NCBI GenBank assembly: GCA_026984675.1
Contig: JALSRQ010000044.1
Location: 1-64,000 of the forward strand
DNA: 64,000 bases
Direction of reading: 5' to 3'
DNA from: Thermaceae bacterium
Lineage (GTDB): Bacteria; Deinococcota; Deinococci; Deinococcales; Marinithermaceae
The notes below the pieces were generated by a model, which was not told the DNA's origin, did no database searches, and worked only from the letters and a program-made list of their open reading frames with translations. Shown piece after piece: positions 24,060 through 41,031 of the stretch; within the stretch, counting starts at the first letter, position 1, and the number at the start of each line of letters is the position of its first letter. The translations under genes and the position numbers were made by a program.

Positions 24060-24136
<77 letters not shown>

Positions 24137-24152
24137 GGAAGAGAACGAGGAA

Positions 24153-24178
24153 AACCCCCGGTCTTCCGACCGGGGGTT
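24153..24178. terminator. Bidirectional intrinsic terminator after tRNA-Ile / int
   Basis: Perfect 11-bp stem AACCCCCGGTC / GACCGGGGGTT with a TTCC loop; the A-run on the left and TT on the right allow use by both the tRNA and the leftward int operon. Confidence 0.75.
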
Positions 24179-24186
24179 CCTCGCTT

Positions 24187-24206
24187 TTGACCACCATTTG
24201 ACCACC
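24187..24206. repeat. Putative integrase arm sites, left doublet
   Basis: Two copies of TTGACCACC, starting at 24187 and 24198, exactly 11 bp apart, between the int stop codon and the core. The same doublet spacing recurs at 54208-54226. Confidence 0.6.
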
Positions 24207-25331
24207 CTACTGGCAGTTCGGCCCGTCGGCGAGGCCCAAAATGTTTTGCACCGCCCGCTTCATCCGCTCGCGCTCGAGGTGGGTGTAGATGTCGAGGGTC
24301 AGGGCCACGGTGGTGTGCCCCAGCAGGCCGGAGACGGTCTTGGGGTCCACCCCCCGGGCAAGCGCCCGGGTGGCGAAGGTGTGGCGCAGGTCGTGGAAGC
24401 GGTACTCCGGCAGGCCCGCCTTCTTGAGCAGGTTCTTGTAGCCCCGCTCGAGGTTCCGGGGGTTAATCGGCGTCTCGGCGCCGGTCTCGGCGGGGAAGAC
24501 CCAGCCGCCGTAGAGACCGAGCCGTTCCAGCTCCACGCCCCAATCGAGGAGCACGTCGCGTAGGTCGGGCGGCAACGGCAGCACCCGCCGGCTCCCCGTG
24601 GTCTTGGGGTCGCCGACCACGACCTTGCCGTCGACCAGGGTGACGATGCGCTGGATGGCGAGCTCATCATGGTCAAAGTCCACGTCCTCCCAGCGCAGGC
24701 CGAGGACCTCGCCACGCCGGAGGCCCAGGGCCAGGGTGGCGTAGAGGATGGGATAGTAGCGGGTGCCCCTGGCCGCCTCGAGGAGCCGCTCCACCTCGTC
24801 CTGGCTGAGCGCCCTGGCCCGCCGGGTCTCCGGCCGTGTCTTGGGAAGCTCGGCAATTTCGGCGGGGGAGTGCTCCAGGTAGCCGTATCTCACCGCCTTG
24901 CGCAGCGCCGCCCGGAGGAAGGTGCGGACGTGGGCCAGGTGGCTGCGGCCGATCCGGGTGGAGAGGTCCTTGTAGAGAGCCTCGAGCTGGGCCACCTTGA
25001 TCTCGGCCAGGGGGTAGCGGCTCAGGGGCTCCAGGTGCTTGGCGTAGGTGCGGTAGCGGGCCAGGGTGTTGGGCCTGACCTCCCCCTCGCGGCTCTGCAG
25101 GTACCCCTGGATCCACTCGCCGAGCGTGATGGACCGACCGGCGTCCTCGGGGGCCTCCCGGCCGGCCTTGATCAGGAGCTCGGCGCGCTTTCTGAGTGCG
25201 TCTTCCCAGGTGCGCGCGTAGGCCACCAGGCGCCGGCGCCTGCCATCAGGGCCGCGAGGAGCCTCGACGCGGATCTCCCACCGCCCGTCCTGGCGGAGCC
25301 GGATTAGGCCTTCTCCCTTGCGGCGGGGCAT
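24207..25331 (-). CDS. int: Tyrosine-recombinase integrase
   Basis: 374 residues, full length. AP2-like N-terminal arm-binding part (1-60), SAM-like core-binding part (about 68-165) and catalytic domain with R205 (ALGLRRGEV), K243, H313/R316 (HDLRHTFA), H339 (LLGHTT) and nucleophile Y349 (DIYTHL), all present. Last gene of the leftward lysogeny operon and next to attL, as is usual. Confidence 0.97.
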   Translation of the reverse strand: MPRRKGEGLIRLRQDGRWEIRVEAPRGPDGRRRRLVAYARTWEDALRKRAELLIKAGREAPEDAGRSITLGEWIQGYLQSREGEVRPNTLARYRTYAKHLEPLSRYPLAEIKVAQLEALYKDLSTRIGRSHLAHVRTFLRAALRKAVRYGYLEHSPAEIAELPKTRPETRRARALSQDEVERLLEAARGTRYYPILYATLALGLRRGEVLGLRWEDVDFDHDELAIQRIVTLVDGKVVVGDPKTTGSRRVLPLPPDLRDVLLDWGVELERLGLYGGWVFPAETGAETPINPRNLERGYKNLLKKAGLPEYRFHDLRHTFATRALARGVDPKTVSGLLGHTTVALTLDIYTHLERERMKRAVQNILGLADGPNCQ

Positions 25332-25342
25332 GGGTTAAGTAC

Positions 25343-25981
25343 TCAAGGCTTTGGGAAGGTTCTCGAAGCCTCCCAGTGCACTTGGAAATACTCTTTTTGT
25401 CCGCCGACATTTAACGCCAACAGCAAGGTTATTCCTTGCCCATTGTGAAGGGACCTGAACATCGGCATGACTACCCACTCAGTTCGCGAGTCGCTCCAAT
25501 AAATCAGATCACTCGGGGCCGCTAGGTCAGAAAGGATAGCGCCGGGAGGAATGATTGACGGAGGCGCAGGGCGATCCTTCTCAAGGAACTTTTGCCCCTT
25601 ATGCATTACCCTCGAGGCGCTCCCATCTGGCAGGACGATCGAACTGCTAGCCCAGATGATTTCGATGGGCTCTTTGGTCTTGTTTTTTAAGTCAAACTCT
25701 ATTTGCTTGGGGCCACCTTCGGCTATGCCACCTTTTTCGTCGGTGTAAATGACAACGTAATCGGGGACCAAGCTCGCGGCGAACGCAAAATCGCTGGTTT
25801 CAACAACCCAAGATGAGTATTTAGGTTTAACCTTGTAGGTTTCGCCTTTATATTTGGCAGTTGCCATCAGGTAGTCGTAAACATATTCTTTTGCCTTCGG
25901 ACGCGTCATCGTAGGCGCGCAGGCAGAGATAAGCAACAAGACCACAGCGCCGGCTGTCAGAACTCTTGTTTTAAGCTCCAT
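25343..25981 (-). CDS. Prophage lipoprotein between repressor and integrase (Ltp-like position)
   Basis: 212 residues. Signal peptide with lipobox ISAC (Cys at about residue 21), then a soluble domain including DYVVIYTDEKGG, KEPIEIIWASSSIVLPDG and SLHNGQGITLLLALNVGG, beta-rich and of no recognised family. Base composition is clearly richer in AT than flanking genes, suggesting recent acquisition. GGAGG precedes the ATG. It starts 3 bp after the repressor gene and ends 11 bp before int, so it should be expressed in the lysogen. A superinfection-exclusion role is inferred from position and surface location only. Confidence 0.75.
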   Translation of the reverse strand: MELKTRVLTAGAVVLLLISACAPTMTRPKAKEYVYDYLMATAKYKGETYKVKPKYSSWVVETSDFAFAASLVPDYVVIYTDEKGGIAEGGPKQIEFDLKNKTKEPIEIIWASSSIVLPDGSASRVMHKGQKFLEKDRPAPPSIIPPGAILSDLAAPSDLIYWSDSRTEWVVMPMFRSLHNGQGITLLLALNVGGQKEYFQVHWEASRTFPKP

Positions 25982-25984
25982 CTC

Positions 25985-26701
25985 CTACCTCCTCACCTTC
26001 CTCGGGTCAAACCCCACGTGCACCACCACGCCCTGGACCTCCACCTGGTCCTCTGGGCTTACCACGATCGGGGGCACCTCGGGGTTCCAGGACTTGAGCA
26101 CCTGGTGGCCTCGACGCCGCTCGAGCTCCTTCAGGTACCCCACCCCCTTGCCCTTGAGCCAGGCGATCACCAGGTCGCCCGGGCGGGGCTCCAGATCGCG
26201 AGCGACCACCACAAAGGAGCCGGGCGGGATGGAGTAGGGGAGGTCCTCGCAGAACATGGAGTCGCCGTCCACCTCGAGGGCGTAGAGCCCGTAAGATCCG
26301 TAGCGCTCGACCACCTCGGAGGACACCTCGATCTCGCCCATCGGCTCGGCGTGGCTCGTGCCGCGACCCGCGGACACCACGCCGAGGAGGGGGACGGTGG
26401 TCATGGTGACTGGGCGAGCGCCCATGCGCTCGAGAGAGGCGCCGGGGAGCTCGATGCCGGTGGCGCGGGTGAACTCTTCGGGGGTCCAGCGAAGGGCGTT
26501 CAGTAGCGCATCCAAAGCTTCTTTGTCGCGTGCCCAGAGATACTTCACGGTCTTCTCCGTATCGCGCAAGAGCTCTTGCGATACCCAACCCTGCGAGCGC
26601 CCGACTCTCATACCAAGCTCCTTTTGGCTTAACCCTAGCTCATGCATCCGCCGACGGATGGCTATTCCAGGCTCTACCGACGCTTCTGCGGCCATCATCA
26701 T
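25985..26701 (-). CDS. CI-type repressor, XRE HTH plus S24 (LexA-like) peptidase
   Basis: 238 residues. N-terminal HTH at about 13-45 (LGLSQKELGMRVGRSQGWVS); autocleavage site A111-G112 in VVSAGRG; catalytic S148 in DGDSMF and K191 in GYLKEL. So it should be inactivated by RecA-stimulated self-cleavage and maintain lysogeny. Three consecutive ATGs (26701, 26698, 26695) follow AAGGGGGG; the middle one has the best spacing. First gene of the leftward operon. Confidence 0.93.
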   Translation of the reverse strand: MMMAAEASVEPGIAIRRRMHELGLSQKELGMRVGRSQGWVSQELLRDTEKTVKYLWARDKEALDALLNALRWTPEEFTRATGIELPGASLERMGARPVTMTTVPLLGVVSAGRGTSHAEPMGEIEVSSEVVERYGSYGLYALEVDGDSMFCEDLPYSIPPGSFVVVARDLEPRPGDLVIAWLKGKGVGYLKELERRRGHQVLKSWNPEVPPIVVSPEDQVEVQGVVVHVGFDPRKVRR

Positions 26702-26709
26702 TAGCCCCC

Positions 26710-26771
26710 CTTATGCGTGAGTATAAGTGAAACTATTGACAAGGGTGGTTTATCAGTCGTACTATTGAAGC
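26710..26771. promoter_or_regulatory. Lysogeny switch: divergent promoters and operator dyad
   Basis: Rightward promoter TTGACA (26736-26741), 18-bp spacer, TACTAT (26760-26765). Leftward -10 TATACT (minus strand, 26725-26720). A dyad CTTAT-N8-ATAAG (26710-26727) covers the leftward -10. ACTATTGA occurs twice, at 26732 and 26761, overlapping the -35 and -10 of the rightward promoter. These are candidate CI/Cro operators. Confidence 0.65.
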
Positions 26772-27002
26772 GTGATGCATGAAACTCCCGACGTGATCGG
26801 TGAGAAAATACGCCAGGCAAGGGAAAAGCTCGGCCTTAGCCAGGCGGAGCTGGCGAGCAAAGTGGGCGTCAGCCAAGCCGCAATCAGTCAGTTCGAGAAG
26901 GGCTCCGCGCGCCCGTCGTTGCTCGTGTTCATCCGGCTTTCTCGTGTGCTTGGGCTATCAATGGAGCAACTGATAACCGAGGAGGCCCCTCATGCCCAGT
27001 AG
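26772..27002 (+). CDS. Cro-like XRE-family repressor
   Basis: 76 residues; single HTH with REKLGLSQAELASKVGVSQA and AISQFEKGSARPS. It starts at GTG 26772, 6 nt after the TACTAT -10, or ATG 26775. Both fit a leaderless transcript. Divergent from CI, the classical immunity arrangement. The stop overlaps the next gene. Confidence 0.88.
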   Translation: MMHETPDVIGEKIRQAREKLGLSQAELASKVGVSQAAISQFEKGSARPSLLVFIRLSRVLGLSMEQLITEEAPHAQ

Positions 27003-27363
27003 CTACCTCGAGGCCCGCGAGCGCTACCGCGAGCTCCTGCGGAGGAAGGCCCGGCTCCAGCGGGAGCTCACCGAGCTCGAGGCCGACATCGCCGAGGCGC
27101 TAATCGAGATGCAGCGCCTGGCCGAGCAGAGCTACATCAACGCCGAGCAGGAAACGCTCACCCTGGCCGACGCCGCGAAACTGCTCAACGTCAGCTACCA
27201 CACCGTCTACCAGATGGCCAGGGAGGGTCGGATCCAAACGATCCGCTTCGGCCGCACCTACCGCGTGCCGAGGCGGGCCCTGCGCGATCTGATCGGCCGC
27301 AACGGGGGAAACCCCGAGACCAAAGCGGCGGCCGGGGTGAGGGCCCCGGCCAGAAAGGAGTGA
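26992..27363 (+). CDS. Excisionase-like DNA-binding protein
   Basis: 123 residues. The first 50 residues are a charged coiled coil (RERYRELLRRKARLQRELTE). Residues about 55-105 form an excisionase/HTH_17 domain: LTLADAAKLLNVSYHTVYQM, then GRIQTIRFGRTYRVPRRALRD. Xis or an early regulator; the position right after cro favours either. Confidence 0.75.
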   Translation: MPSSYLEARERYRELLRRKARLQRELTELEADIAEALIEMQRLAEQSYINAEQETLTLADAAKLLNVSYHTVYQMAREGRIQTIRFGRTYRVPRRALRDLIGRNGGNPETKAAAGVRAPARKE

Positions 27364-27367
27364 TAGC

Positions 27368-27571
27368 GTGCCAGCTACCACTAACAGGATACAGCGGACA
27401 GAGGAGTTCCTGCGCGAGGAAATCGCCCGCCTAGCTGATGAGTTAGTCCGCATCGGCTGGGGCGGCATCCGTCCAGAGAGAAGCGAGGAGTACCGCCGCG
27501 TGGCTCGGCGGAAGTGGGAGCTTGAGCAGAAGCTCCTGCGGATCCGGGCAATGAGGGAGGTGGCGCGGTGA
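27368..27571 (+). CDS. Small charged phage protein, unknown
   Basis: 67 residues, almost wholly alpha-helical and charged (RTEEFLREEIARLADELV, RRKWELEQKLLRIRAMRE). GTG start; overlaps the next start. No family recognised. Confidence 0.55.
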   Translation: MPATTNRIQRTEEFLREEIARLADELVRIGWGGIRPERSEEYRRVARRKWELEQKLLRIRAMREVAR

Positions 27572-27813
27572 TCCGCGACCTACCCCCCCTTGCCAAGTGG
27601 CGCCACGTCGTCACCTGCCCCGTCTGCGGCGGTGACGGCACGGTGGAGCTCCCCCTCTCCGAGGACCCGGCCGACACCCGGGATCACCGGTGCCCGATCT
27701 GCGAGGGCATCGGCCGGGTGTGGGTCCTGGTCTACGAGATCGAGGGCCTTCCGGGCCGGCGCCTGACCTGGGAGGTCGAGGACCCGGCCTACGAGGAGGT
27801 GGAGGATGCCTAA
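27568..27813 (+). CDS. Small zinc-ribbon-like protein
   Basis: 81 residues with two CxxC knuckles, CPVCGGDG and CPICEGIG, 20 residues apart, the pattern of a DnaJ-type/rubredoxin-like zinc ribbon. Acidic C-terminus. Part of the overlapping early operon; possibly a nucleic-acid or host-protein binder. Confidence 0.65.
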   Translation: MIRDLPPLAKWRHVVTCPVCGGDGTVELPLSEDPADTRDHRCPICEGIGRVWVLVYEIEGLPGRRLTWEVEDPAYEEVEDA

Positions 27814-27997
27814 CGCCCTCGGCTGGACCATCCGCGAGAAGTTTGTCGGCTACGAGGTCCTGATCTGGTCCGGGGCCGACGTGCTCTACCGGGGGCACGC
27901 GCGGACCCGGGCCCAGGCCGCCAGGCTCGCCGAGCACTGGCGAAAAAAGCTCCTGCCGGAGGCCTTCCGGCGGGAGGAGAAGGAGGTGGATGCATGA
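27806..27997 (+). CDS. Small phage protein, unknown
   Basis: 63 residues: an N-terminal beta-hairpin-like part (WTIREKFVGYEVLIWSGADV) and a helical basic tail. Overlaps both neighbours by 4-8 bp, which supports translation. Confidence 0.55.
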   Translation: MPNALGWTIREKFVGYEVLIWSGADVLYRGHARTRAQAARLAEHWRKKLLPEAFRREEKEVDA

Positions 27998-28299
27998 TCG
28001 CCCGCGGCCTCGCCCTCATCGCCGGGATCAAGGCCCGGCGCCCAGACCGCATAGTCCGAACCGACCGCAAGCACCTAGCCCGGGCCCTCGAGGCCCGGCG
28101 CCAGGCCCCATCCGAGGCCGACCGGATCGCCGAGCGGCTTAGGGGCCTCGGCTACGAGGTGGCCTACGGCTGGGATCCCGACCTCGGGGACTACGCCGAG
28201 GTGCGTATCGAGGGTCGCCTGGTGGCCCTGGCCAACCGGTGCGGCTCGGTGGAGGCGTGTTTGCGGCAGGTTGCGGGGGAGCTGGGGGTGGGGGTGTGA
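27994..28299 (+). CDS. Small phage protein, unknown
   Basis: 101 residues: basic N-terminal helix, then RLRGLGYEVAYGWDPDLGDY and YAEVRIEGRLVALANRCGSV, a small alpha/beta pattern. Overlaps neighbours by ATGA/GTGA. Confidence 0.55.
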   Translation: MIARGLALIAGIKARRPDRIVRTDRKHLARALEARRQAPSEADRIAERLRGLGYEVAYGWDPDLGDYAEVRIEGRLVALANRCGSVEACLRQVAGELGVGV

Positions 28300-28805
28300 A
28301 AACCGGGGAAATCCTCATTGAAGCGGCTCGCCGCATGAGTGCGGCTGGTGATCACCTCTTGGCCACGCTGCTGGTAGCTGTGTGGGCAGCCCATACAGCC
28401 CGTGAAGAAGGTGACGAGCGGGGGCGCCAAATGGCCCTCGTAAGCGCTCTTCAGTCGCTTGCCACCGAACGCGGCTACGAGTTCAGCCGGCACTTGACCC
28501 CAGCCCAACCCCAGGACCGGAGGCCAAGCAACATCGCTGCCGTTTTTCTCACTAAGAACGGGGAGATCTTCTTCGCCCCGCCCGGATCGGTAATTGAAAA
28601 GGGGTACTCCCCAGGGTTGGGAAACGTTGTTGAGCTGGGAACTCCAGACCAACGCTACGTCACCCTCGCCTATAACGTGGACGAACCGCATTGTCTCATT
28701 TCTGCAATGCTTGCCGATCTGTCCCGGCAGGCAAAAAGCGGAGTCGCATTCGCGGTACTCGACGTAGCAAAGCTCGCGCAGACCGGCCAGGGGGTTGAAG
28801 GGTGA
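28296..28805 (+). CDS. Phage protein of unknown function
   Basis: 169 residues from the GTG at 28296, which overlaps the upstream stop. A helical N-terminal half (AARRMSAAGDHLLATLLVAV) is followed by a beta-rich part (SNIAAVFLTKNGEIFFAPPG). Codon use is more AT-rich than the adjoining genes, a sign of separate origin. No family recognised. Confidence 0.55.
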   Translation: MKTGEILIEAARRMSAAGDHLLATLLVAVWAAHTAREEGDERGRQMALVSALQSLATERGYEFSRHLTPAQPQDRRPSNIAAVFLTKNGEIFFAPPGSVIEKGYSPGLGNVVELGTPDQRYVTLAYNVDEPHCLISAMLADLSRQAKSGVAFAVLDVAKLAQTGQGVEG

Positions 28806-28993
28806 TCTCCCTCTGGCTCGCCGCCTTCATTGGCTTTGCATCCGGTTTTATCGGCCTCTTCGTTGCCGCCCTGCTCTGCGCCGCGGGGCGGAGCGAGGAC
28901 GCCCTCGAGGCCCGGGAGCGGGCGGGCCTCGAGCTGGAGCTGGACCCGCTCATGGAAAGCGAGGAGGCGGGCCGAAAGCCCGCCGGGAGGTGA
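28802..28993 (+). CDS. Small single-span membrane protein
   Basis: 63 residues; one N-terminal membrane helix (ISLWLAAFIGFASGFIGLFV) and an acidic cytoplasmic tail. Overlaps the upstream stop by GTGA. Confidence 0.55.
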   Translation: MISLWLAAFIGFASGFIGLFVAALLCAAGRSEDALEARERAGLELELDPLMESEEAGRKPAGR

Positions 28994-28996
28994 CTC

Positions 28997-29974
28997 ATGA
29001 GTGAGTTGGCCCAGAAGCAGAATACCACCACCGGACTGGTGCCGTCTCCCAGCGAGGCGGCGGAACTGGCCCGCACCAAGATCTTCGCGGGCATACCGGA
29101 CGACGAGGTCAAGCTGGCCCTGGCCATCGCCGGGCGGTACGGGCTCGACCCGCTGCTCCGGCACCTGGTGCTCATCCCCGGAGGCCAGAACCGGCGCTAC
29201 AACGTCTACATCACCCGGGACGGCTTGCTGCACATTGCCCACACCAGCGGCAAGCCGTGGAGCATCGAGATCGACGAGCCGCAGAAGCGGGAGAACCCCT
29301 ACACCGGCCGCGAGGACATCTACCTCAAGGGCCGGGTGAAGGTGCTCGACCCCGCCACCGGTCAGACCCAGGTCTTTGAGGGCGGCGTCTGGTTCAGCGA
29401 GTACAACGCCGGGCGCGGCTCCTGGAAGACCCACCCGGCGGCGATGCACCAGAAGGTGCTCGAGGTCTACCTCCTACGCAGGGCCTTCGACGTGGCCCTG
29501 ACCCCGATCGAGGAGATGGACCGGGTGCAGGCGGTGCAGACCCAGGTGCCACAGCCCGAGCCGGTCCCGGTCGGGGCGCATGTGGAGCCGATCCCAACCG
29601 GCCCCGAGCGCATCAACAAGGCCCAGCTCAGCAAGATCGGGGCCACCCTGAACGAGCTCGGGCTGGTGAACGGGCGGTACCGCGATGTGAAGCTCCGCCT
29701 GGCGGAGATGGTCGTGGGGCGGCAGGTGACCACCTCCAAGGAGCTCACCAAGGAAGAGGCCTCCCGGTTCATCGACTACCTGGAAAAGCTTCGCGAGGGC
29801 CTCCAGGCGGCCGGGGTGAAGGACGCCGCCGAGGCCGCCAGCTACATCACCCGGATGGTCGAGTCGGGGGCGGTCCCGCCCACCGACGTCGAGGCGCTGA
29901 AGGCGGACCTCGAGGCCTTCCGCGCGGTGGGCGGCGACGCCCGCGAGGAGCTCTTCGAGAACGAGGACGCGTAG
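28997..29974 (+). CDS. bet: Bet/RecT-family single-strand annealing protein
   Basis: 325 residues. The N-terminal 165 match the Beta/RecT core: AIAGRYGLDPLLRHLVLIPGG, YITRDGLLHIAHTSGKPWS, GGVWFSEYNAGRGSWKTHP and KVLEVYLLRRAFDV. The rest is helical. It anneals complementary single strands in phage recombination and replication. No Exo/RecE or SSB gene was recognised next to it. Confidence 0.85.
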   Translation: MSELAQKQNTTTGLVPSPSEAAELARTKIFAGIPDDEVKLALAIAGRYGLDPLLRHLVLIPGGQNRRYNVYITRDGLLHIAHTSGKPWSIEIDEPQKRENPYTGREDIYLKGRVKVLDPATGQTQVFEGGVWFSEYNAGRGSWKTHPAAMHQKVLEVYLLRRAFDVALTPIEEMDRVQAVQTQVPQPEPVPVGAHVEPIPTGPERINKAQLSKIGATLNELGLVNGRYRDVKLRLAEMVVGRQVTTSKELTKEEASRFIDYLEKLREGLQAAGVKDAAEAASYITRMVESGAVPPTDVEALKADLEAFRAVGGDAREELFENEDA

Positions 29975-29976
29975 AC

Positions 29977-30000
29977 GTGGGGGCCCGCTCGGGCCCCCAC
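29977..30000 (+). other. Strong hairpin after bet
   Basis: Perfect 11-bp stem GTGGGGGCCCG / CGGGCCCCCAC with a two-base gap as loop, 3 bp after the bet stop. No T-run follows and the next gene is 20 bp away, so it more likely attenuates or stabilises mRNA than ends it. Confidence 0.45.
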
Positions 30001-30020
30001 CCCTCTGGAGGTGGACGGGT

Positions 30021-30365
30021 TTGCGAGGCGAGATTACCGAAGCGGAACTCACCAGGGCGATCCGGCTCCTCGAGGAGCGCCGCGCTTGGGGGATCGCGCG
30101 CGAAGAGTTCGAGGACCTATTTGGTTCAGACCGACGGGGCCGGCAGGTCATGGCCGAGCTCAGGAAGCGGGGTCGGGCGGCGGTGGTGGTGGCCGCCGGC
30201 CCGGAGGGCAAGGAGGTCTACCGGCTCCCCGAGAACGAGGCGGAGTACCGCCAGTTCCGGACGAAGCTGATCAGCCGGATCAAGGAGCTCGAGGCCGCGC
30301 TCGCCGGGATGGAGCGGGCCTGGGAAGCGGGCGGTGTGCGCGTCGCCCAGGAGCAGCTGTTTTAG
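30021..30365 (+). CDS. Small phage protein, wHTH-like
   Basis: 114 residues from TTG at 30021, with GGAGGTGG 6 nt upstream. Pattern: RAIRLLEERRAWGIAREEFE, DRRGRQVMAELRKRGRAAVV and a C-terminal coiled coil, like a winged helix plus zipper. Function unknown. Confidence 0.55.
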   Translation: MRGEITEAELTRAIRLLEERRAWGIAREEFEDLFGSDRRGRQVMAELRKRGRAAVVVAAGPEGKEVYRLPENEAEYRQFRTKLISRIKELEAALAGMERAWEAGGVRVAQEQLF

Positions 30366-30374
30366 GGGGTTGCG

Positions 30375-31250
30375 ATGGCAAGACCAAGAAGCAAGAGCGG
30401 AACGTGGACCAAGGTGCCGAACTGGGTCTTCGCTGTACTGCCAACGCTGAAGCCGCGAGCCCAGGCGGCCCTTTTTGTCCTCGCGGCGGAAGCGAACTTC
30501 GGTCGCGGGCTTGGTCATCTTTCGGTGGCCGAACGCACCGGCGTTGACCCCCGCACGGCTAAGCGAGCGCTCGAAGAACTTATGAGCGCAGGCTACGCAA
30601 CCAAGGAAGGGGGCATCTACCAGCTGGTCGCAGAACCGGAGCACGCTTTGGGCAAGACAGGCGCAAAACGTGCGCAAGGTTTGCAGCAAAACGTGCAAGC
30701 GGACATGCAAGAAACGCCGTCCAGGACGGGGCTCGCGAACGCCGAAGGAAGAAAGGAAGTAAAGGAAGAAGGAAGTATATATAACTCCCCCCCTTACCCC
30801 CCCTCTTCCAGCACCGGACCCTCTGGCCGGTTAGGCGAGGAAGAGGCCGCTAAAGACGCGGGGGTTCAGAGCACCGGACCAACGGCGCTTGAAGCGTCCC
30901 TCGGGCCGGCCGGTCAGGCGATCGTCTTCGTGGCGCCCGGGGCGCTCCACCGCCGGGTGCCCGGGCGGGATTACACCGTCCTCGACCGGCTCCGAGCCTG
31001 GGACGAGATGTGGTCCCCCGAGGAGGTCCGGGCAGCCTGGGCCCAGGCCAAGCGGGACGCCCACACCCACCCGTTGAAGGTCTTCTGGCTGATCCTCGAG
31101 GGCGAGATCCCGCTCGACGCCTCACTGGTCGAGCGCCCGCCGGAACTGCGAAGGCCCAAAAAGCCCTACCGCGAGTACCGCTACATCGGCATCGACGACG
31201 TGCCCGACCCGCTCGAGGTGCTTTATGGCCGCAAACCTGCCTCGGCGTGA
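30375..31250 (+). CDS. Replication initiator-like protein (wHTH plus C-terminal domain)
   Basis: 291 residues. The N-terminus (1-95) is a winged helix: TWTKVPNWVFAVLPTLKPRA, LSVAERTGVDPRTAKRALEE, then GYATKEGGIYQL. A low-complexity hinge (about 96-165) follows, encoded by the candidate origin. The C-terminal part (PEEVRAAWAQAKRDAHTHPL) resembles the DnaD/DnaT-type end of O-like proteins. It lies just before the helicase gene, as O lies before P or a DnaB gene. Confidence 0.7.
   Translation: MARPRSKSGTWTKVPNWVFAVLPTLKPRAQAALFVLAAEANFGRGLGHLSVAERTGVDPRTAKRALEELMSAGYATKEGGIYQLVAEPEHALGKTGAKRAQGLQQNVQADMQETPSRTGLANAEGRKEVKEEGSIYNSPPYPPSSSTGPSGRLGEEEAAKDAGVQSTGPTALEASLGPAGQAIVFVAPGALHRRVPGRDYTVLDRLRAWDEMWSPEEVRAAWAQAKRDAHTHPLKVFWLILEGEIPLDASLVERPPELRRPKKPYREYRYIGIDDVPDPLEVLYGRKPASA
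30663..30790. other. Candidate phage replication origin inside the initiator gene
   Basis: GCAAAACGTGC occurs at 30663-30673 and 30686-30696 (23-bp period); related GTGCAAG/ATGCAAG words follow to about 30712. Then comes a purine-rich tract and an AT-rich TATATATAA element near 30775-30785. Iterons plus an adjacent melting region inside the initiator gene repeats the lambda ori plan. Confidence 0.5.
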
Positions 31251-32397
31251 CCTCGAGCGCATCACGCTCTCCTACGCCCTGGCCGGGCTGATCCGGCCCG
31301 AGCCCGAGCTCTACGCCATCCCGGAACACCGCACCCTGGCCGAGGCTCTGGCCGAGCACGGCCCCGAGGGGGTGGCGCTCGCCGAGGTCGAGCCCTCGCT
31401 GATCGCCAGCGTCACCGACCTGTACCTGGACTACGGCTCGGTGGCCGCCGAGGAGATGCAGCGCCGCCTGCGGGAAGCGGTGCGGCGCCAGCGAGTCACG
31501 GAGGCCGCCCTCCGGGTGGCCCAGGCGGCCAAGCGCGGCGAGGACTACCTGGCGGCCGTAGAGGCGCTCACCGAGGCGGCGGAAGGGCGCGAGGAGCGGG
31601 GCGCCGTGCCCGCGAGGGAGGCGGCGCGGCTCGCGCTCGAGCGCTGGCGGGCCGAGCGCGAGGGGCGCAGGAAGCCCCCGATCGCGGTGGCCCGCGACCC
31701 CGCCTTTCCCAGCTTCGACGGCGGCGGCCACTACATCCTGGCCGCCCGCACCGCGGTGGGGAAGACCGCGCTCGCCCTGCAGTTCGCCCTCATCGCCGCC
31801 CGGGCGGGGCGGAAGGTGGTCTTCTACAGCCTCGAGATGCCCGCCTGGACCCTCGGCGCCCGACTGATCTCGCAGGTGCTAGGGATCCCGCTGCACGAGC
31901 TCCGGGACGCGGAGGGCCTGGAGCGCGCCCTGGCGCTTCTCGACGTGCCGCTTTTCGTGCGCGACGACGTGGACCACGCCGAGGCGCTCTACGCCGACAT
32001 GCGCAGGGCGGGGGCCGACTTCTACGTGGTCGACTACCTTGGCCTGGTGCACCCCAGCGCCCGTGAGGAGCGCCGGGAGCTCGAGGTCGCCCGGATCAGC
32101 CGGGCCCTGAAGCGCCTGGCGGTGAAGCTCGACGTGCCCGTGCTCACCCTGGCCCAGATCAACCGGCAGGCCGAGCAGAAGCGCGACAAGCGCCCCGAGC
32201 TTTCGCACCTCCGCGACTCGGGGGCCATCGAGCAGGACGCCGACGTGGTGATGCTGCTCTGGCGCAAGCCCGAGCCCGGCGGAACCCTCTCCGACGAGGG
32301 CGAGCTGGTGGTGGCCAAGAACCGCCACGGCCCCACCGGGGTCTGGCCGGTGCACTTCCAGGGCGCGGCGCTCCGGTTTGCCTGGGAGGGGGCATGA
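31225..32397 (+). CDS. DnaB-like replicative helicase
   Basis: 390 residues. RecA-fold SF4 helicase: Walker A ARTAVGKT at about 174-181, H1a-like VVFYSLEMP, Walker B DFYVVDYLGLV, LAQINRQAEQKRDKRPELSH, and the arginine-finger region KNRHGPTG. The N-terminal domain is short. The gene overlaps the initiator gene by 26 bp. Confidence 0.9.
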   Translation: MAANLPRRDLERITLSYALAGLIRPEPELYAIPEHRTLAEALAEHGPEGVALAEVEPSLIASVTDLYLDYGSVAAEEMQRRLREAVRRQRVTEAALRVAQAAKRGEDYLAAVEALTEAAEGREERGAVPAREAARLALERWRAEREGRRKPPIAVARDPAFPSFDGGGHYILAARTAVGKTALALQFALIAARAGRKVVFYSLEMPAWTLGARLISQVLGIPLHELRDAEGLERALALLDVPLFVRDDVDHAEALYADMRRAGADFYVVDYLGLVHPSAREERRELEVARISRALKRLAVKLDVPVLTLAQINRQAEQKRDKRPELSHLRDSGAIEQDADVVMLLWRKPEPGGTLSDEGELVVAKNRHGPTGVWPVHFQGAALRFAWEGA

Positions 32398-32783
32398 AGC
32401 TGATCGAGCGGCTGGCCCGCGACCTGAACGCGAAGGGGACCCGGGCCTTCGCGGCCCCCGGCGGCCTGGTGGTAAACGGCGAGCGGTTCGGTCTCAAGGA
32501 GGCCGCCCGGATCGCGGTCGCGGTCTACGGGACCCCGCGCGTCGAGGTGGCCCCCAGGCGCCGGGAGCGCGGCCTGGCCTGGGAGCCGGACGAGCTGCTC
32601 GGTCCGCTCCTCGACTGGGCCGAGGATCACACCCTCACCCCTGGCGAGGAACGGCTGCTCGCTGCCCTGGTGGCTGGAAAGATCGACCCCGTCGAGGCGG
32701 CCGGCTGGGCGGCGATCAACGGATGGACCGCGTTCGCGCTCGCGCTCGGTGAAGTCGCCGAGCGCTGGCTGGAGGAGCGATGA
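32394..32783 (+). CDS. Phage protein of unknown function
   Basis: 129 residues, soluble. N-terminal part NGERFGLKEAARIAVAVYG, C-terminal helical part GEERLLAALVAGKIDPVEAA. It overlaps the helicase stop and the next start by 4 bp each. No family recognised. Confidence 0.55.
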   Translation: MKLIERLARDLNAKGTRAFAAPGGLVVNGERFGLKEAARIAVAVYGTPRVEVAPRRRERGLAWEPDELLGPLLDWAEDHTLTPGEERLLAALVAGKIDPVEAAGWAAINGWTAFALALGEVAERWLEER

Positions 32784-33613
32784 AGGGCAAGTACCTGAAG
32801 AAGGTCGACTGGGAGCACTCGAGGGGATACCTGTCCCTGAAGGAGGCCGCCCGCTTGGCCGGGGTCTACCCCGACTCCATCCGCACCTGGCTGATGCGGC
32901 ACGGCCTGTACCGCTACCCCTACGCGGTCTTCTGGCGGGGCCAGGCGATGCTGAACCGGAACGCCCTGGAGGCCTACCTCTACCGGGGGAACCTGGTCCG
33001 CCTGCCGAAGCTCTACCCCGGGTGGCGGAAGCTCGCCGACATCGCCCGCGAGTACCCGCTCTCCTACAGCATGGTGCAGCGGGCGGCCTACCGCGGGGAG
33101 TTTCGGGCCGGTCGCTGGCGGCGGGCGATCTACGTCGAGCCCTACAGCTTCCGCCGCTGGGCGGAGGCGGCGCTTGCCCCGATCCGTCACCCCTGGATCC
33201 GGGCCTCCGACCTGGCCCGGCGGCTTGGCATGCACCCGGGGAGCGTGCGGCAAACGGCGCACCAGCACGGGATCACCGTGGTCCACCGCTACGACCCCAA
33301 GAGCCGCGCCCGGGTGGCGGTGATCCACCTGATCGAGTGGGAGGACACCTTTGGGCCGGTGGACCGGATCCGGGCACGGCGGTTGCCGGAACTGCCCGAA
33401 GGGTACGTCCTGGTCACCGACGTGGCCCGCCGGGAGGGGGTCAGCCGGCAATCGGTCCTCATCTGGGCCCGTTCACGACGGGCCCGGGTGGTCTACGTGG
33501 ATGCCCCGGGTGTGCCCAGGAAGGCGGCGATCCCGGAGACCACCGCCCGGCTCTACGCGCGCATGCGGGCCCGCCGCCGGCGGCACCGGGAGGAGGCCGG
33601 CCGTGCCGCTTGA
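32780..33613 (+). CDS. Multi-HTH DNA-binding protein (four tandem helix-turn-helix units)
   Basis: 277 residues carrying four HTH/wing-like units: LSLKEAARLAGVYPDSIRTW (about 18-60), WRKLADIAREYPLSYSMVQR (82-125), IRASDLARRLGMHPGSVRQT (140-185) and LVTDVARREGVSRQSVLIWA (205-245). Each is followed by a short basic wing. The basic tail ends RRRRHREE. A DNA-binding or gene-regulatory role is inferred; the repeated layout is unusual. Confidence 0.7.
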   Translation: MKGKYLKKVDWEHSRGYLSLKEAARLAGVYPDSIRTWLMRHGLYRYPYAVFWRGQAMLNRNALEAYLYRGNLVRLPKLYPGWRKLADIAREYPLSYSMVQRAAYRGEFRAGRWRRAIYVEPYSFRRWAEAALAPIRHPWIRASDLARRLGMHPGSVRQTAHQHGITVVHRYDPKSRARVAVIHLIEWEDTFGPVDRIRARRLPELPEGYVLVTDVARREGVSRQSVLIWARSRRARVVYVDAPGVPRKAAIPETTARLYARMRARRRRHREEAGRAA

Positions 33614-33782
33614 GCTCGCCCTGGCCGCCGTCCTGGCCTGGCTGGCGGCGTTCGTGCTCGGGTTTTTCCTGCTCTTTGAGGGGGTGCCGCCGCGAAGCCC
33701 AAGGGCGCTCTTGATCCAGCTTCTGGCGGCTGCGGTGCTGGCCACCGGCTGGGTGGTGCTGGTAGTGGAGGTGGCGCGGTGA
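33603..33782 (+). CDS. Small two-span membrane protein
   Basis: 59 residues from the GTG at 33603. Two membrane helices: ALAAVLAWLAAFVLGFFLLF and LIQLLAAAVLATGWVVLVVE. Overlaps both neighbours. It lies far from the lysis cassette, so a holin role is not assumed. Confidence 0.55.
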   Translation: MPLELALAAVLAWLAAFVLGFFLLFEGVPPRSPRALLIQLLAAAVLATGWVVLVVEVAR

Positions 33783-34273
33783 AGCGGGTCGTCGCGCGCC
33801 CCTGGACCCCCCGCGATGACGCCATCATCGTCGAGCTCACCCGCCGCGGCTGGCCGCCGCACGCGATCGCGCTGGTGGTGCCTCGTAGCTTTGGCTCGAT
33901 CCGCGCTCGCCTGGCCCGCTTGCGGCGCCGTGGCACGGATCTGCCCCGCTTCCGGCCCGGAGGACAGCACCAGCGCCCGGTCGCCTTGGCCGAGCTCAGA
34001 GCCGACTACGAGGAGATCACTGCGGGGCTTGACCGGCAGAGCGTGGCCTACGAGGAGGCCCGGGCCTATGCGCGGCGGCTCCGCGCGGCCGGTCCCGAGC
34101 TTGCGTTGCCAGAACCGATGAGCGACGAGGAGGTTGCTGCCGTGATCGAGCGGGCGGCCCGACTCGCCGGCCCAGCGATGGCGATGGCGATTGCCGAGGC
34201 CCACCGGGCCTGGCGAGCGCAAAACCGGCTGCGGCCGGTGGAGGGGGTTTGCGCCTCGACGAGGAGGAGGTAG
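33779..34273 (+). CDS. Myb/SANT-like HTH protein
   Basis: 164 residues. The N-terminal 50 residues look like a SANT/GcrA-type unit: RPWTPRDDAIIVELTRRGWP and SFGSIRARLARLRRRG. The rest is helical. Possible late-gene regulator, given its place near the end of the early operon; inference only. Confidence 0.55.
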   Translation: MKRVVARPWTPRDDAIIVELTRRGWPPHAIALVVPRSFGSIRARLARLRRRGTDLPRFRPGGQHQRPVALAELRADYEEITAGLDRQSVAYEEARAYARRLRAAGPELALPEPMSDEEVAAVIERAARLAGPAMAMAIAEAHRAWRAQNRLRPVEGVCASTRRR

Positions 34274-34276
34274 GAC

Positions 34277-34861
34277 GTGGCTGTTAGTGAGCTTAGGTTC
34301 CCTGGATTACGAGGTGGCTACCGCAGCTACCGCATTGCCCTTGAGCTCTACCGGTTGGGGGAGATCGCTAGGCTGGAATCGGGGCTCTGGGCCCGTGGTC
34401 AGCTCACCAGCCGAAAGGTGAGCGACCTCCTCTTTGACGAGGACCGCTCCCTGCTGGAGAGACTCGCCGAGCTCGACGAACACATCGAGCTCATGATGCG
34501 GTTGGGGCACGAGCCGGCCACGCTCCGCCAGCAGCGCGAGGAGCTGGTGGAGAAGATTCGGCGCGTCTACCGCCACGCCTACTCCACCGGCGACCTTCCT
34601 GGCAGTGAGCCCATCGTCCCCTGGGGGGAGCGGTGGCCGGAGGGTGCGGAGAGCGACCAAGACTTCGCGAAGTGGCCGGTGTGGGAGCTCGACACCACCG
34701 GCCTCAGGGTGCACGAGACCGACAGCGGGGTCGACTGGGCGGAGTTGCGGGGGAAGTTCGACCTGGTGTTCGACACCGCCAAGAGGCAGTATTTCCTCCT
34801 CCATCCGGTCGAGGACTACGCGTGGAACATGATCGCCGGGAAGGGGGCGCACCTGCTTTGA
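34277..34861 (+). CDS. Phage protein of unknown function
   Basis: 194 residues from GTG at 34277, preceded by a GGAGGAGG run. N-terminal coiled-coil region to about residue 100, C-terminal alpha/beta part (WPVWELDTTGLRVHETDSG, YFLLHPVEDYAWNMI). No family recognised. Confidence 0.5.
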   Translation: MAVSELRFPGLRGGYRSYRIALELYRLGEIARLESGLWARGQLTSRKVSDLLFDEDRSLLERLAELDEHIELMMRLGHEPATLRQQREELVEKIRRVYRHAYSTGDLPGSEPIVPWGERWPEGAESDQDFAKWPVWELDTTGLRVHETDSGVDWAELRGKFDLVFDTAKRQYFLLHPVEDYAWNMIAGKGAHLL

Positions 34862-35001
34862 GGGTGATCCAAATCGAGTGGGGGGCGACCGGTCTCGAGG
34901 TCTGGTTCCCCGAGCGGCTGGCGGTGGCGCTCGTGATCATCGCGGTGATCCTGGCCGTGCTCGGCCTGGGCACCGCGTGGCGTGGGGGGTGGATCGGGTG
35001 A
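34858..35001 (+). CDS. Small membrane protein
   Basis: 47 residues from TTG at 34858 (overlapping the upstream stop) or 45 from GTG at 34864. One membrane helix, LAVALVIIAVILAVLGLGTA. Overlaps the next start by GTGA. Confidence 0.5.
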   Translation: MRVIQIEWGATGLEVWFPERLAVALVIIAVILAVLGLGTAWRGGWIG

Positions 35002-35249
35002 CGACGCGGGAGTGGTTGCGCCCGATTGTCGAGCGTGTGGTGCGCGAGGTCGTTGAGCAGGTGGGAACCGACGATCGCGAGCGGTTGCGCCGAGAGCTGC
35101 GCCGGGCGTTGCGCGATGCGTACCCGGGCAGGGCGCGGCGCGGTGCTTTTTACCAGGTTTGGCGCGATGAGTGCCGTCGCGCGATGTGGAAGCTCGGCCT
35201 CGAGCTCCCGCGTGTTGAGGCGCCGCTGTTCGAGGAGGGGCGCTCATGA
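34998..35249 (+). CDS. Small basic helical protein
   Basis: 83 residues from the GTG at 34998; very basic and helical (VERVVREVVEQVGTDDRERL, RRELRRALRDAY). Overlaps rusA by ATGA. Function unknown. Confidence 0.5.
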   Translation: MTTREWLRPIVERVVREVVEQVGTDDRERLRRELRRALRDAYPGRARRGAFYQVWRDECRRAMWKLGLELPRVEAPLFEEGRS

Positions 35250-35596
35250 GGCTCGTACTGCCCTGGCCCCCCTCCGTAAACCGCTACTGGCGTCACGACC
35301 GCGGCCGCACCCACATCAGCGCCGAGGGGCGCCGGTACCGCGCGGACGTGTGGGCGATCGTGGCCGAACGCGGGACGGGTGGTCTGCCCTTTCGCGGCCC
35401 GGTGCGGGTGGTGATCCGCGCCTATCCGCCGGACCGGCGGCGGCGGGACGTGGACAACCTCGCCAAGGCGATCCTGGATGCCCTGGAGTTCGCACGGGTC
35501 CTCGAAAACGACCACCAGGTGGCGGACCTGCGGATTGTGCGGGAGGAGCCGGTGCGCGGCGGCCGCATCGAGGTGGAGGTGGAGGAGGCCCTATGA
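35246..35596 (+). CDS. rusA: RusA-family Holliday junction resolvase
   Basis: 116 residues. RusA pattern: PPSVNRYWRHDRG near the start, RRRRDVDNLAKAILDALEFA with the catalytic aspartates, and ENDHQVADLRIVRE. Resolves four-way junctions before packaging and works alongside Bet. Confidence 0.9.
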   Translation: MRLVLPWPPSVNRYWRHDRGRTHISAEGRRYRADVWAIVAERGTGGLPFRGPVRVVIRAYPPDRRRRDVDNLAKAILDALEFARVLENDHQVADLRIVREEPVRGGRIEVEVEEAL

Positions 35597-36174
35597 CCGC
35601 CGAGGAGCGCAAACTCGCCGAGGCCTGGTACCAGGCCCTCCGCGCCTGGAAGACCAGGACCCTCACCGACACCGTCCCCCGCGGCCCCCGGCGCACTCCC
35701 GGCGGCCCCCCGGCCCGGGTGGTCTGGGGGTGCCCGGTTTGCCGCTCGACCCGGGTGGCGGAGTGGGACGAGCGGATCCTCGAGGCCCGCGCCCGCGGTG
35801 AGGACCTCACCCCGGTGGTGCGCGAGATCGCCCGCGTCCTCCGTGTGCGGGAGGCGGTGGTGTGGTCGCACGCCCGCGACCACCTCGACCCCGAGCCGCC
35901 CCGCCCGCTGATCGGTGTCTGGGTGTACGACCGGCGCGTCCGCCTCGGCGAGCACCTCCTGACCCCGGCCGGGTGGATCCCGGTCGAGCGCGTACTGGCG
36001 GCGGTCCGGGAGGCGCCTGAGGCCGTGCGTGTGCGGCTCGACGAGATCAGGATAGCCAGGCGCCTCCCTCGCTCGCTCCTCGACGGCGACGGCCAGTTCA
36101 AGGACAAAAAGCGCCGCCTCCTGGCCGAGGCGGCGCTGTGGCTCGCCGATGTGCTCAGTCCTCGGCGAGCCTGA
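35593..36174 (+). CDS. Phage protein of unknown function
   Basis: 193 residues from ATG at 35593, overlapping rusA. A single CxxC (WGCPVCRSTRV), an HTH-like part VREIARVLRVREAVVWSHAR, and a C-terminal region GVWVYDRRVRLGEHLLTPAG. Last gene of the early operon, so it could govern early/late transcription; inference. Confidence 0.5.
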   Translation: MTAEERKLAEAWYQALRAWKTRTLTDTVPRGPRRTPGGPPARVVWGCPVCRSTRVAEWDERILEARARGEDLTPVVREIARVLRVREAVVWSHARDHLDPEPPRPLIGVWVYDRRVRLGEHLLTPAGWIPVERVLAAVREAPEAVRVRLDEIRIARRLPRSLLDGDGQFKDKKRRLLAEAALWLADVLSPRRA

Positions 36175-36396
36175 ACCAGATCGCGAGGGCGGTGGTGCGC
36201 CCTTGCTCGGCGAGTTCGTCGAGGAGGCCCAAGCTACCACCGGTTCGGTGAGGTCGTAGACCTCGGCCGCCTCGACCACGGCCGGTAGCAGGACCGGCCG
36301 GTCGCGGCGGTGGCCAGGGAGGCGGAGTTCGAGCTCATGCCGCCGGAGCGCTGCGCCATCCCCCGCTTTTTGGTAAGATTTCTCTAGGATGAGCAA
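36155..36396 (-). pseudogene. Possible broken small gene opposing the phage operons
   Basis: On the minus strand two segments with host-like codon use follow each other in different frames: PGHRRDRPVLLPAVVEAAEV to YDLTEPVV, then GLLDELAEQGRTTALAIWFR ending AED-stop at 36155. One frameshift near 36230 would join them. The start codon is unclear (TTG at 36396). It fills most of the gap between the early and late operons; weak evidence. Confidence 0.25.
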
Positions 36397-36427
36397 ACCC
36401 CTGCCCGACGGCGGGGGTTTTGCTTTG
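36395..36427 (+). terminator. Intrinsic terminator before the terminase operon
   Basis: 11-bp stem AAACCCCTGCC / GGCGGGGGTTT with a CGAC loop (36395-36420), followed by TTGCTTTG. A TAAGAT -10-like box at 36374-36379 lies just upstream, so transcripts from there would meet the terminator within about 30 nt. Confidence 0.65.
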
Positions 36428-36443
36428 TCACAAGGTCACAACT

Positions 36444-36770
36444 ATGCCGCTCAGGAAGAAAGAGGTCGCCAAGGCCTTGCGCGAAACGCACGGGGTCATC
36501 ACCCGGGCCGCCCGAAAGCTCGGCGTGGCCCGTGAGACTTTGAGTCGTTACGTCTCGAAGCACCCCGATCTCCAGCGGGTGCGCGACGAGGCTAAAGAGG
36601 CTCTCGTCGACCTGGCCGAGGAAGGCCTGGTGGAGGCGCTTGAGAAGCGCCGCCCGTGGGCGGTGCAGTTTACGCTGGCTCGCCTTGGCAAAGATCGCGG
36701 CTACACCGAGCGCACCGAGCAGGAGCAGGTCGGCGAGATCCGGGTGAAGGTGATCCGTGAAGACGCTTGA
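36444..36770 (+). CDS. terS: Terminase small subunit
   Basis: 108 residues from the ATG at 36444. The N-terminal HTH RKKEVAKALRETHGVITRAA and ARKLGVARETLSRYVSKHPD recognises phage DNA; the C-terminal helix LVEALEKRRPWAVQFTLARL and tail bind the large subunit. Overlaps terL. Confidence 0.8.
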   Translation: MPLRKKEVAKALRETHGVITRAARKLGVARETLSRYVSKHPDLQRVRDEAKEALVDLAEEGLVEALEKRRPWAVQFTLARLGKDRGYTERTEQEQVGEIRVKVIREDA

Positions 36771-37965
36771 GGTCGAAGTCCGCCTGCCCCGGTTGCATCC
36801 GGGTCAGGAACAGGTGCTCGCCGAGACCCGCCGGTACAACGTCCTGGCCTGCGGGCGCCGCTGGGGGAAGACCACGCTGCTCGTGGACCTGGCGGTGAAC
36901 GCGGCCCTGGATGGCAAGCGGGTGGGCTGGTTCGCGCCCACCTACGCCCTCCTCGAGGAGGCCTACGGCCGCATGCGGCGGACCCTCGAGGGGGTGATCA
37001 CCCAGGCGGCCCAGTCGCCCCATCCCCGCCTCGAGCTCTACACCGGCGGGGCTATCGAGTTCTGGACCCTCGACGATCCCTACAAGGCCGGTCGCGGCCG
37101 GGCCTACCACCTGGCGATCGTGGACGAGGCTGCCTTCGCTAAGCGCCTCGACGTGGCCTGGGAGGAAAGCGTGGGGCCCACCCTGACCGACTACCGGGGC
37201 TCGGCGTGGTTTGCTTCAACCCCGAAGGGGAAGAACTACTTCTTCGAGCTCTGGAGCCGGGGCCAGGGCGATGATCCCGACTGGAAGAGCTGGCGGATGC
37301 CCACCAGCACCAATCCCCACATCAGCGCTGAGGAACTCGCCGCCCGCCGCCGCTCGATGCCCGAGCTGGCCTGGCGGCAGGAGTACGAGGCCGAGTTCGT
37401 GGACGCCGAGGGCGCGGTGATTCGCCGCGAGTGGATCCGCGTCGCTGACCCCCCGGAGCGGAAGGCCCTCGAGGTCTACCAGGGGGTGGACCTGGCCATC
37501 AGCACCCGCGAGGACGCCGACTACACCGCCGTGGTGACGGTCGGAAAGGACAAGGAGGGGCGCATCTGGGTGCTCGACGCGGTGCGCACGCGCGAGACCT
37601 TCCACCGGGTGCTCGAGCTCATCAAGTCCCAGGCGGCAAGGTGGCAGCCACGGGTGATCGCGATCGAGCAGGTGCAGTACCAGGCGGCGGTGGTGCAGGA
37701 GCTTTTGCGCACCACCGCACTGCCGGTGCGCGGCGTGCGTCCCGACCGCGACAAGCTGGCCCGGGCCATGCCGCTTATCGCCCGCTACGAGCAGGGGCTG
37801 GTCTACCACGCGCCCGCCCTCCCCAAGGCCTTTGAAGAGGAGCTTACCGCCTTCCCCCTCGCCGAGCACGATGACCAGGTGGACGCCCTGGTCTACGCCT
37901 ACCAGGCTTCGGCCGGCGGGTGGGGGCTCAAGCCCGAGACCCAACGGAGGTACGCCGTACGGTGA
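36757..37965 (+). CDS. terL: Terminase large subunit
   Basis: 402 residues. Packaging ATPase with Walker A ACGRRWGKTT (31-40) and Walker B YHLAIVDEAAF; the RNase H-like nuclease has QGVDLAIS, IAIEQVQYQ and HDDQVDALVYA. All acidic catalytic residues are present. GTG start inside terS. Confidence 0.95.
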   Translation: MKTLEVEVRLPRLHPGQEQVLAETRRYNVLACGRRWGKTTLLVDLAVNAALDGKRVGWFAPTYALLEEAYGRMRRTLEGVITQAAQSPHPRLELYTGGAIEFWTLDDPYKAGRGRAYHLAIVDEAAFAKRLDVAWEESVGPTLTDYRGSAWFASTPKGKNYFFELWSRGQGDDPDWKSWRMPTSTNPHISAEELAARRRSMPELAWRQEYEAEFVDAEGAVIRREWIRVADPPERKALEVYQGVDLAISTREDADYTAVVTVGKDKEGRIWVLDAVRTRETFHRVLELIKSQAARWQPRVIAIEQVQYQAAVVQELLRTTALPVRGVRPDRDKLARAMPLIARYEQGLVYHAPALPKAFEEELTAFPLAEHDDQVDALVYAYQASAGGWGLKPETQRRYAVR

Positions 37966-39239: not shown

Positions 39240-39883
39240 CGCTTGAAAAGCTCGGTGAGATCATCCGCCGCCTCGAAGAGCGCTTCGAGCGCGAGGGGCG
39301 TCGCGACCTCCTCGAGCGCATGTACCGGCTCATCGACCGCGGCGACATCTGGGTCCTCTGGAACTGGGCGGCCAACATGCGACTGGTTTCCGCGCAGGCG
39401 GCCTGGACCGCCCACGCGATGTGGCTCAAGGGTCTGAAGGCCCACCCCCCACCCGCGCGGCTGGAGTGCATGATCCAGCGGGCCTACGACTGGGGCGGGG
39501 TGGTGGCCGCCCGGTTCCAGGCGGTCATGGTGCGGGAGCGGCCCGGCATCCACCCCCGCTTGTGGCTCAAGCTCGCGGTCCGTGCCGGGGTGCGCGGCGG
39601 CTGGGCCGAGGGGGCTCGCGAGGCCGCCGAGGAGGCCGGCGCCGGGTTCAAGACCTGGATCCGCACCTGGCCGGCGAAGGAGCCCCGCGACTGGCACGAC
39701 GCCCTCGAGGGCAAGACCATCCCCGCCAATGCCCTCTTCACCCTTCCCGGCGGCCCAAACATCGGCGCGAAGGTCGAGGCGCCCCACGACTGGCAGCGCC
39801 TGCCCGACCCCGCCGAGTGGATCAACTGCGGGCACGCGGTGGTCTACACCCCGCACGCCCGTCTGCGCGACCTGGCGAGGTGA
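39236..39883 (+). CDS. Minor head protein (Mu gpF/SPP1 gp7-like)
   Basis: 215 residues. The C-terminal half has the family signature: KTWIRTWPAKEPRDWHDALEG, IPANALFTLPGG, and AEWINCGHAVVYT, as in head morphogenesis proteins. The N-terminus is helical. Overlaps the portal gene by ATGA. Confidence 0.75.
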   Translation: MTLEKLGEIIRRLEERFEREGRRDLLERMYRLIDRGDIWVLWNWAANMRLVSAQAAWTAHAMWLKGLKAHPPPARLECMIQRAYDWGGVVAARFQAVMVRERPGIHPRLWLKLAVRAGVRGGWAEGAREAAEEAGAGFKTWIRTWPAKEPRDWHDALEGKTIPANALFTLPGGPNIGAKVEAPHDWQRLPDPAEWINCGHAVVYTPHARLRDLAR

Positions 39884-39886
39884 ACG

Positions 39887-40135
39887 ATGAAAGGACCCAA
39901 GGTCAAGACCCCAGCCCTCACGAGCTCGAAGAGGGAGCGGGCCCAGGTTCCGGCGCACGTCTTCCTGCTCCCCTCGGAGCGTAAGTTCCCCTACAAGCGC
40001 TGGCGGAACGGAGAGTGGGTGATCTCCTGCGCCGACCTGCGCGACGCCATCCGGCTCGCGGCGGCGCACGGTTACCGCAAGGTGCTGGCGCGGGCGCAGA
40101 AGATCTACGCGGAGAAGTGCGGAGGCAAGCGGTGA
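39887..40135 (+). CDS. Small head-region protein
   Basis: 82 residues, beginning KTPALTSSKRERAQVPAHVF and LLPSERKFPYKRW. Such small basic proteins occur in front of phage capsid genes; function unknown. Confidence 0.6.
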   Translation: MKGPKVKTPALTSSKRERAQVPAHVFLLPSERKFPYKRWRNGEWVISCADLRDAIRLAAAHGYRKVLARAQKIYAEKCGGKR

Positions 40136-40365: not shown

Positions 40366-40368
40366 CCA

Positions 40369-40409
40369 ACGGGGCATCGCCCCGTGGTGAGCCCGCCCTG
40401 GAGGCGGGC
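40369..40409 (+). other. Two consecutive hairpins before the scaffold gene
   Basis: ACGGGGC/GCCCCGT (40369-40385, 3-nt loop) and GCCCGCC/GGCGGGC (40391-40409, 5-nt loop), then ATTCGTT. They sit 24 bp before the scaffold ATG; possible processing site or partial terminator that sets capsid mRNA level. Confidence 0.45.
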
Positions 40410-41020: not shown

Positions 41021-41031
41021 GGAGGTAGGAA

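Follow-up and report, generated by a model that had tools for sequence, protein, structure and literature searches.

What is a small lipoprotein gene doing between the repressor and integrase genes of a temperate phage? The window analysed here, a stretch of 64,000 nucleotides from a Thermaceae bacterium, has such a gene in the lysogeny module of a prophage. The initial annotation had read its product as a candidate new superinfection-exclusion factor, a lipoprotein made in the lysogen that keeps out a second phage.

The lysogeny module and its lipoprotein gene

The region contains the following features:

24137..54379, complete prophage, 30.2 kb (att repeats, with phage ORFs inside)
24091..24136 (+), attL, 46-bp repeat at the 3' end of tRNA-Ile(GAT) (24060-24136)
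54334..54379 (+), attR, 46-bp repeat identical to attL (repeat comparison)
24207..25331 (-), tyrosine integrase, 374 aa (PF00589, E 1.1e-26; phrog_1, E 5.7e-74)
25343..25981 (-), lipoprotein gene (cargo), 212 aa, lipobox ISAC with Cys21, member of an unnamed family of secreted, probably beta-sandwich proteins
25919..25981 (-), lipoprotein signal peptide through the lipobox Cys21, next residue Ala (read from the sequence)
25988..25993 (-), Shine-Dalgarno AGGAGG of the lipoprotein gene, inside the 3' end of the repressor gene (read from the sequence)
25985..26701 (-), S24/LexA-like phage repressor, 238 aa (Pfam PF00717, E 9.8e-19; phrog_4, E 3.8e-27)
26772..27002 (+), divergent Cro-like HTH regulator, 76 aa (PF01381, E 6e-19)

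The prophage is complete. Terminase-, portal-, capsid-, tape- and endolysin-like ORFs (roles read by eye) lie between attL and attR, and the same tRNA is used by phiMa-like phages and IN93 (PMC11437467). IMG/VR contig 3300026534_000119 (29,190 bp) is identical to the window over the 6,775 bases compared; it holds the sole near-identical copy of the lipoprotein gene and is probably the same genome. Elsewhere in the prophage, ARAGORN reported a tRNA-Pro (agg) at 39575-39667 (+), inside ORF 39236-39883, which is probably a false positive in a coding gene. The longest reading of a tail-region ORF (48503-50140, plus strand, start uncertain) begins with a lipobox-like leader, LRKLGLAWTFAFLAIWLTACG.

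The repressor, lipoprotein and integrase genes follow one another on the minus strand with gaps of 3 and 11 bp, as the initial annotation had described, and a promoter-like TTGACA-18-TACTAT (26736-26765, plus strand) lies ahead of the Cro-like gene. The lipoprotein gene is the single occupant of the repressor–integrase slot, with no effector gene beside it. Its ATG is preceded at a distance of 6 nt by AGGAGG (25993-25988). The N-terminus, MELKTRVLTAGAVVLLLISAC-AP, has a basic n-region, a hydrophobic stretch and the lipobox ISAC; by this sequence rule the mature lipoprotein would comprise 192 residues, counted from Cys21. A crude lipobox filter retained two of the 214 window ORFs of at least 100 aa, the lipoprotein ORF and one host ORF. 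An Ala after the lipobox Cys favours the outer membrane in enterobacteria; the sorting rule of Thermales may differ. In a diderm host a lipid-anchored protein may sit on the periplasmic side, and the surface is therefore a candidate location only. The coding sequence is AT-richer than both neighbours, again as first described, with a GC content of 0.504 versus 0.653 (repressor) and 0.704 (integrase) and a GC3 of 0.573 versus 0.828 and 0.92. Because a homologous family with full-length members exists (see below), the ORF is, judged by sequence comparison, a real gene.

Empty sites and cargo at the repressor–integrase junction

The region was searched by BLAST against 50,697 phage records. The Thermus phages phiMa and Cumys have homologues of both the integrase and the LexA-like gene, at 73% DNA identity; the match spans 2,044 bases in the query versus 1,408 bases in the records. 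Neither phage has a gene between repressor and integrase, whose coding sequences share 4 bp. IMG/VR 3300020567_000394, whose integrase is 80% identical, likewise has no gene between the two, which here also appear to overlap by 4 bp. When the junction is aligned with these relatives, the window has one extra gene, exactly there. As the phiMa, Cumys and IMG/VR junctions are without it, the alignments identify the lipoprotein gene as an extra, accessory insert relative to the closest phages.

Such a gene could be a recently arrived passenger that does little or nothing for the phage. An AT-rich composition unlike that of the phage, absence from close relatives and the rarity of the family in phages (1 of the 50,697 records) are consistent with this account. 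However, the reading frame, lipobox and Shine-Dalgarno sequence are intact, the insertion fits tightly into the operon and family members recur beside repressors in other phages; we consider a mere passenger improbable.

More distant Thermales prophages were located via an integrase search. Their S24–integrase slot is empty in two cases (L065, L070), holds an Mrr_cat nuclease-domain protein with a membrane segment (the segment recognized by eye) in four (L071, L075, L077, L078), and in one (L090) holds a TM/periplasmic protein that shares 96% identity with the Riverbug 'periplasmic domain protein'. The gene order in IN93 is LexA-like, lipoprotein, restriction endonuclease, integrase, with the lipoprotein ORF37 directly after the repressor. 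Inserts in other Thermales phages are mostly secreted, membrane-anchored or nuclease proteins. The four Mrr_cat proteins also carry a C-terminal domain, and the one in L077 is related to IN93 ORF38.

A variable region between the integrase and LexA-like genes has been described in IN93, Tsatsa, Riverbug and Thermus proviruses, with lipoproteins, membrane proteins, restriction enzymes and HEPN proteins among its contents (PMC11437467). The arrangement in the window has the same characteristics, a same-strand gene between an S24/LexA-like repressor and an integrase and a content that varies or is absent among relatives. The IN93 slot genes form an operon that is thought to be transcribed in the prophage, on evidence cited in that study, and defence and superinfection exclusion have both been proposed as roles of this region in Thermus phages, exclusion for its lipoproteins and membrane proteins (PMC11437467). 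The exclusion idea of the initial annotation thus fits a published hypothesis, and neither the slot nor the idea is new.

In IN93, Riverbug and Tsatsa the slot holds a nuclease or HEPN gene as well as the gene for a secreted or membrane protein, and one relative of the window protein (in genome G305) lies near an XhoI system. These observations would suit a defence accessory, in which the lipoprotein is the envelope sensor or partner of an intracellular nuclease effector, as the IN93 lipoprotein might be with the adjacent Mrr-type endonuclease. The window gene, however, is alone in its slot, and we give this account little credence.

An unnamed family and its recurrence beside S24 repressors

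The window protein had no match in Pfam (E up to 1), PHROGs, NCBIfam or PADLOC, and a PDB search by sequence returned nothing credible. The earlier statement that the domain fits no family thus holds for named families; a homologous unnamed family with full-length members was nevertheless found. Homology searches returned a lipoprotein of ∼ 29% identity in a genome of the same order (G041), as well as weaker homologues in Bacteroides phage BS-TP2 and on plasmids of Stanieria and Marinitoga, and the family proved very rare in phage records. Single-sequence matches had E values of 1.6e-11 and 4e-6, the latter to BS-TP2 gp14. Searching the phage records by tblastn with other family members yielded BS-TP2 again and nothing further. 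The first family profile was too diverse for collection scans, and narrower alignments added only a few members. The window protein matches the family profile with an E value of 1.3e-51, its own sequence having been part of that profile. Members are present in 5 of 111 Deinococcota and 15 of 296 Bacteroidota genomes (a frequency of ∼ 5% in the sampled genomes of these groups), in 3 of 244 genomes of one further class and in 1 of 98 of another. A lipobox is present in almost every member, and the alignments show a conserved core of N-x-[ST], W-[DN]-E, G, V-[IM]-H-x-G-V-K, P-P, D and P. The window protein shares this domain pattern after its export signal (N-x-[ST], W, G, V-x-H-x-G, P-P, D, P).

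Most members are chromosomal and have neither a phage context nor common neighbours, and because of this the ancestral job of the domain is not phage exclusion. The distribution suits a general lysogenic-conversion lipoprotein that would not act on phages directly but would change the host's envelope or the lysogen's fitness (through stability, or by binding a ligand or envelope partner); the relatives are for the most part lipoproteins encoded on chromosomes of Deinococcota and Bacteroidota. Since the family is mostly chromosomal, we regard a general envelope or fitness role as the main rival to exclusion, possible although rather doubtful. It sits poorly with the repeated placement of members directly after S24 repressors in unrelated phages, and with the nuclease or restriction genes that occur as neighbours or slot-mates.

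Four members with known context lie near S24 repressors, namely the window protein, BS-TP2 gp14 and members in two genomes (G311 and G305). BS-TP2 gp14 (XPO95281.1) follows the S24 repressor gp15 directly, after 20 bp and on the same strand, and has a homologous domain (38% identity over 76 aa). It differs from the window protein in its length (401 aa), in a long N-terminal extension and in that no lipobox Cys was seen; the BS-TP2 integrase, moreover, is on the other strand, beyond a transposase. In G311, a Rhodothermia genome, the member starts 28 bp after the S24 gene, and replication-type genes in divergent orientation lie in the same region. The G305 genome has a divergent member without a lipobox; it and the S24 gene are 1.5 kb apart on opposite strands, and the region also contains an integrase and the XhoI restriction gene. 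Among the 18 other genomes, two had a member within 2 kb of an S24 gene versus 0.04 expected (P about 9e-4); this value was derived from S24 counts and genome lengths, assumes random S24 placement and uses a cut-off set after seeing the data, and serves as a rough guide.

The phage members do not form one clade in the family tree, which has long branches and many weak forks. On this tree, four label changes are required to account for the four phage members, at least two of them forced by the starred branches alone. The S24-adjacent members would then have arisen via several independent captures.

Two observations concern the surroundings of other members. In G311 the family lipoprotein is followed, in the same repressor-side cluster, by a SocA/Panacea-domain antitoxin-like gene (L040, 7928-8539). 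In IMG/VR 3300014043_000317 the surroundings of a family lipoprotein (L013, 4136-4786) include, as read by eye, a PP2C-like ORF and a HerA/DptH-like ATPase ORF of 1500 aa, and they resemble a mobile defence island more than a phage.

AlphaFold models, each based on only four sequences, were obtained for the window protein (pLDDT 64.7, pTM 0.63) and for a relative from Alistipes (pLDDT 70.5, pTM 0.70). Both are mainly beta, with a sandwich-like order of strands. The family domain is probably a beta-sandwich, as far as models of modest confidence allow. Comparison of the models with Foldseek and VIA-align gave no functional match. Kinship with the GM2 activator, TRAP, adaptin ears or ApaG was rejected, as the resemblance is a common sandwich arrangement (Z of 7.5 or less); this judgement covers the families on the match list.

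Proposed role and comparison with known systems

We propose that a temperate phage of Thermales acquired a cargo (moron) gene horizontally, at the exact junction of its repressor and integrase genes. Co-transcription with the repressor is probable, and the lysogen would then make the lipoprotein at a time when lytic genes are off. After export and cleavage at Cys21 the product would receive its lipid and stay anchored in the membrane, its putative beta-sandwich domain facing either the periplasm or the outside of the cell. In this place it would most likely interfere with an incoming related phage, either by covering or binding the receptor or by blocking DNA entry. We infer expression with the repressor from the position in an operon-like layout, location from the signal sequence (export and lipid anchoring), and the envelope block of a second phage, with its target, from analogy with Ltp and the Thermus-slot proposals. 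Taken as a whole, a lysogeny-expressed cargo lipoprotein that most likely excludes phages at the envelope strikes us as an evenly balanced proposition.

The observations underneath are the gene with its lipobox, its operon-like surroundings, its absence from the junction of close relatives, a slot of variable content and the repeated association of the family with S24 genes. The exclusion reading is favoured by the operon-like packing, the strong Shine-Dalgarno sequence, the empty sites, the foreign composition, the slot-mates and the S24 recurrence. Against it stand a mostly chromosomal family without phage context, the rarity in phage records, the lack of a PADLOC match and structure models of modest confidence that point to no function. 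Of the original proposal, the operon position, the accessory nature of the gene (absent from phiMa, Cumys and 3300020567_000394) and, in addition, the recurrence of the family beside S24 repressors are in its favour. We speculate further that the family might be a separate class of superinfection exclusion, captured repeatedly from chromosomes by temperate phages of different phyla and placed beside S24 genes for expression in the lysogen, although we think this unlikely.

Competition between phages by means of lipoprotein and membrane-protein exclusion genes is under-described, above all in thermophiles. The window offers one testable gene in a known cargo slot, together with closely related phages without the gene for comparison. 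A lipoprotein family with no model in Pfam, PHROGs or NCBIfam is now linked to temperate phages in more than one phylum, and exclusion, if true, would be its first function.

Among known proteins, the DUF4352-type secreted Ig-like proteins YjhA (3cfu) and YcdA (4r4g) of B. subtilis show a weak fold resemblance as beta-sandwich lipoproteins (Z about 6, among many unrelated sandwiches). Neither the window protein (E up to 1) nor other members match this family in Pfam, however, and, the sandwich being a common fold class, we make no claim of kinship.

The soluble domain of Ltp, the lipoprotein of Streptococcus phage TP-J34, has a helical repeat fold. The window protein, by contrast, is predicted to be beta-rich, at a modest pLDDT (65 and 70 for the two models), and PF07553 (Lipoprotein_Ltp) had no match in it at E up to 1, nor anywhere in the genome, while controls were found. 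Homology to Ltp was rejected. The likeness is that of a prophage lipoprotein in the lysogeny module, in the integrase–repressor interval (for TP-J34, PMC3952083), with an export signal and lipid anchor, recognized by sequence rule in the window protein. The initial annotation had placed the two genes in the same position. This is correct for the interval between repressor and integrase; TP-J34, however, has the order int-ltp-orf3-crh, with one further gene (orf3) between ltp and the repressor (PMC3952083). Ltp also acts in a monoderm host. Although outside the Ltp family, the window lipoprotein may, by analogy, work like Ltp.

The closest parallel in layout is the LexA–integrase slot of the Thermus phages IN93, Tsatsa and Riverbug, which agrees with the window in position, strand and the presence of lipoproteins or membrane proteins with periplasmic domains. 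The window differs in holding a single gene without a nuclease partner, and the proteins are unrelated in sequence; no relation to IN93 ORF37, Tsatsa_36 or Riverbug_56 was found, their profile scores being below zero. Going by the libraries searched (Pfam, PHROG, NCBIfam), which have no model of the family, the window protein can be called a new type of lipoprotein in a known slot.
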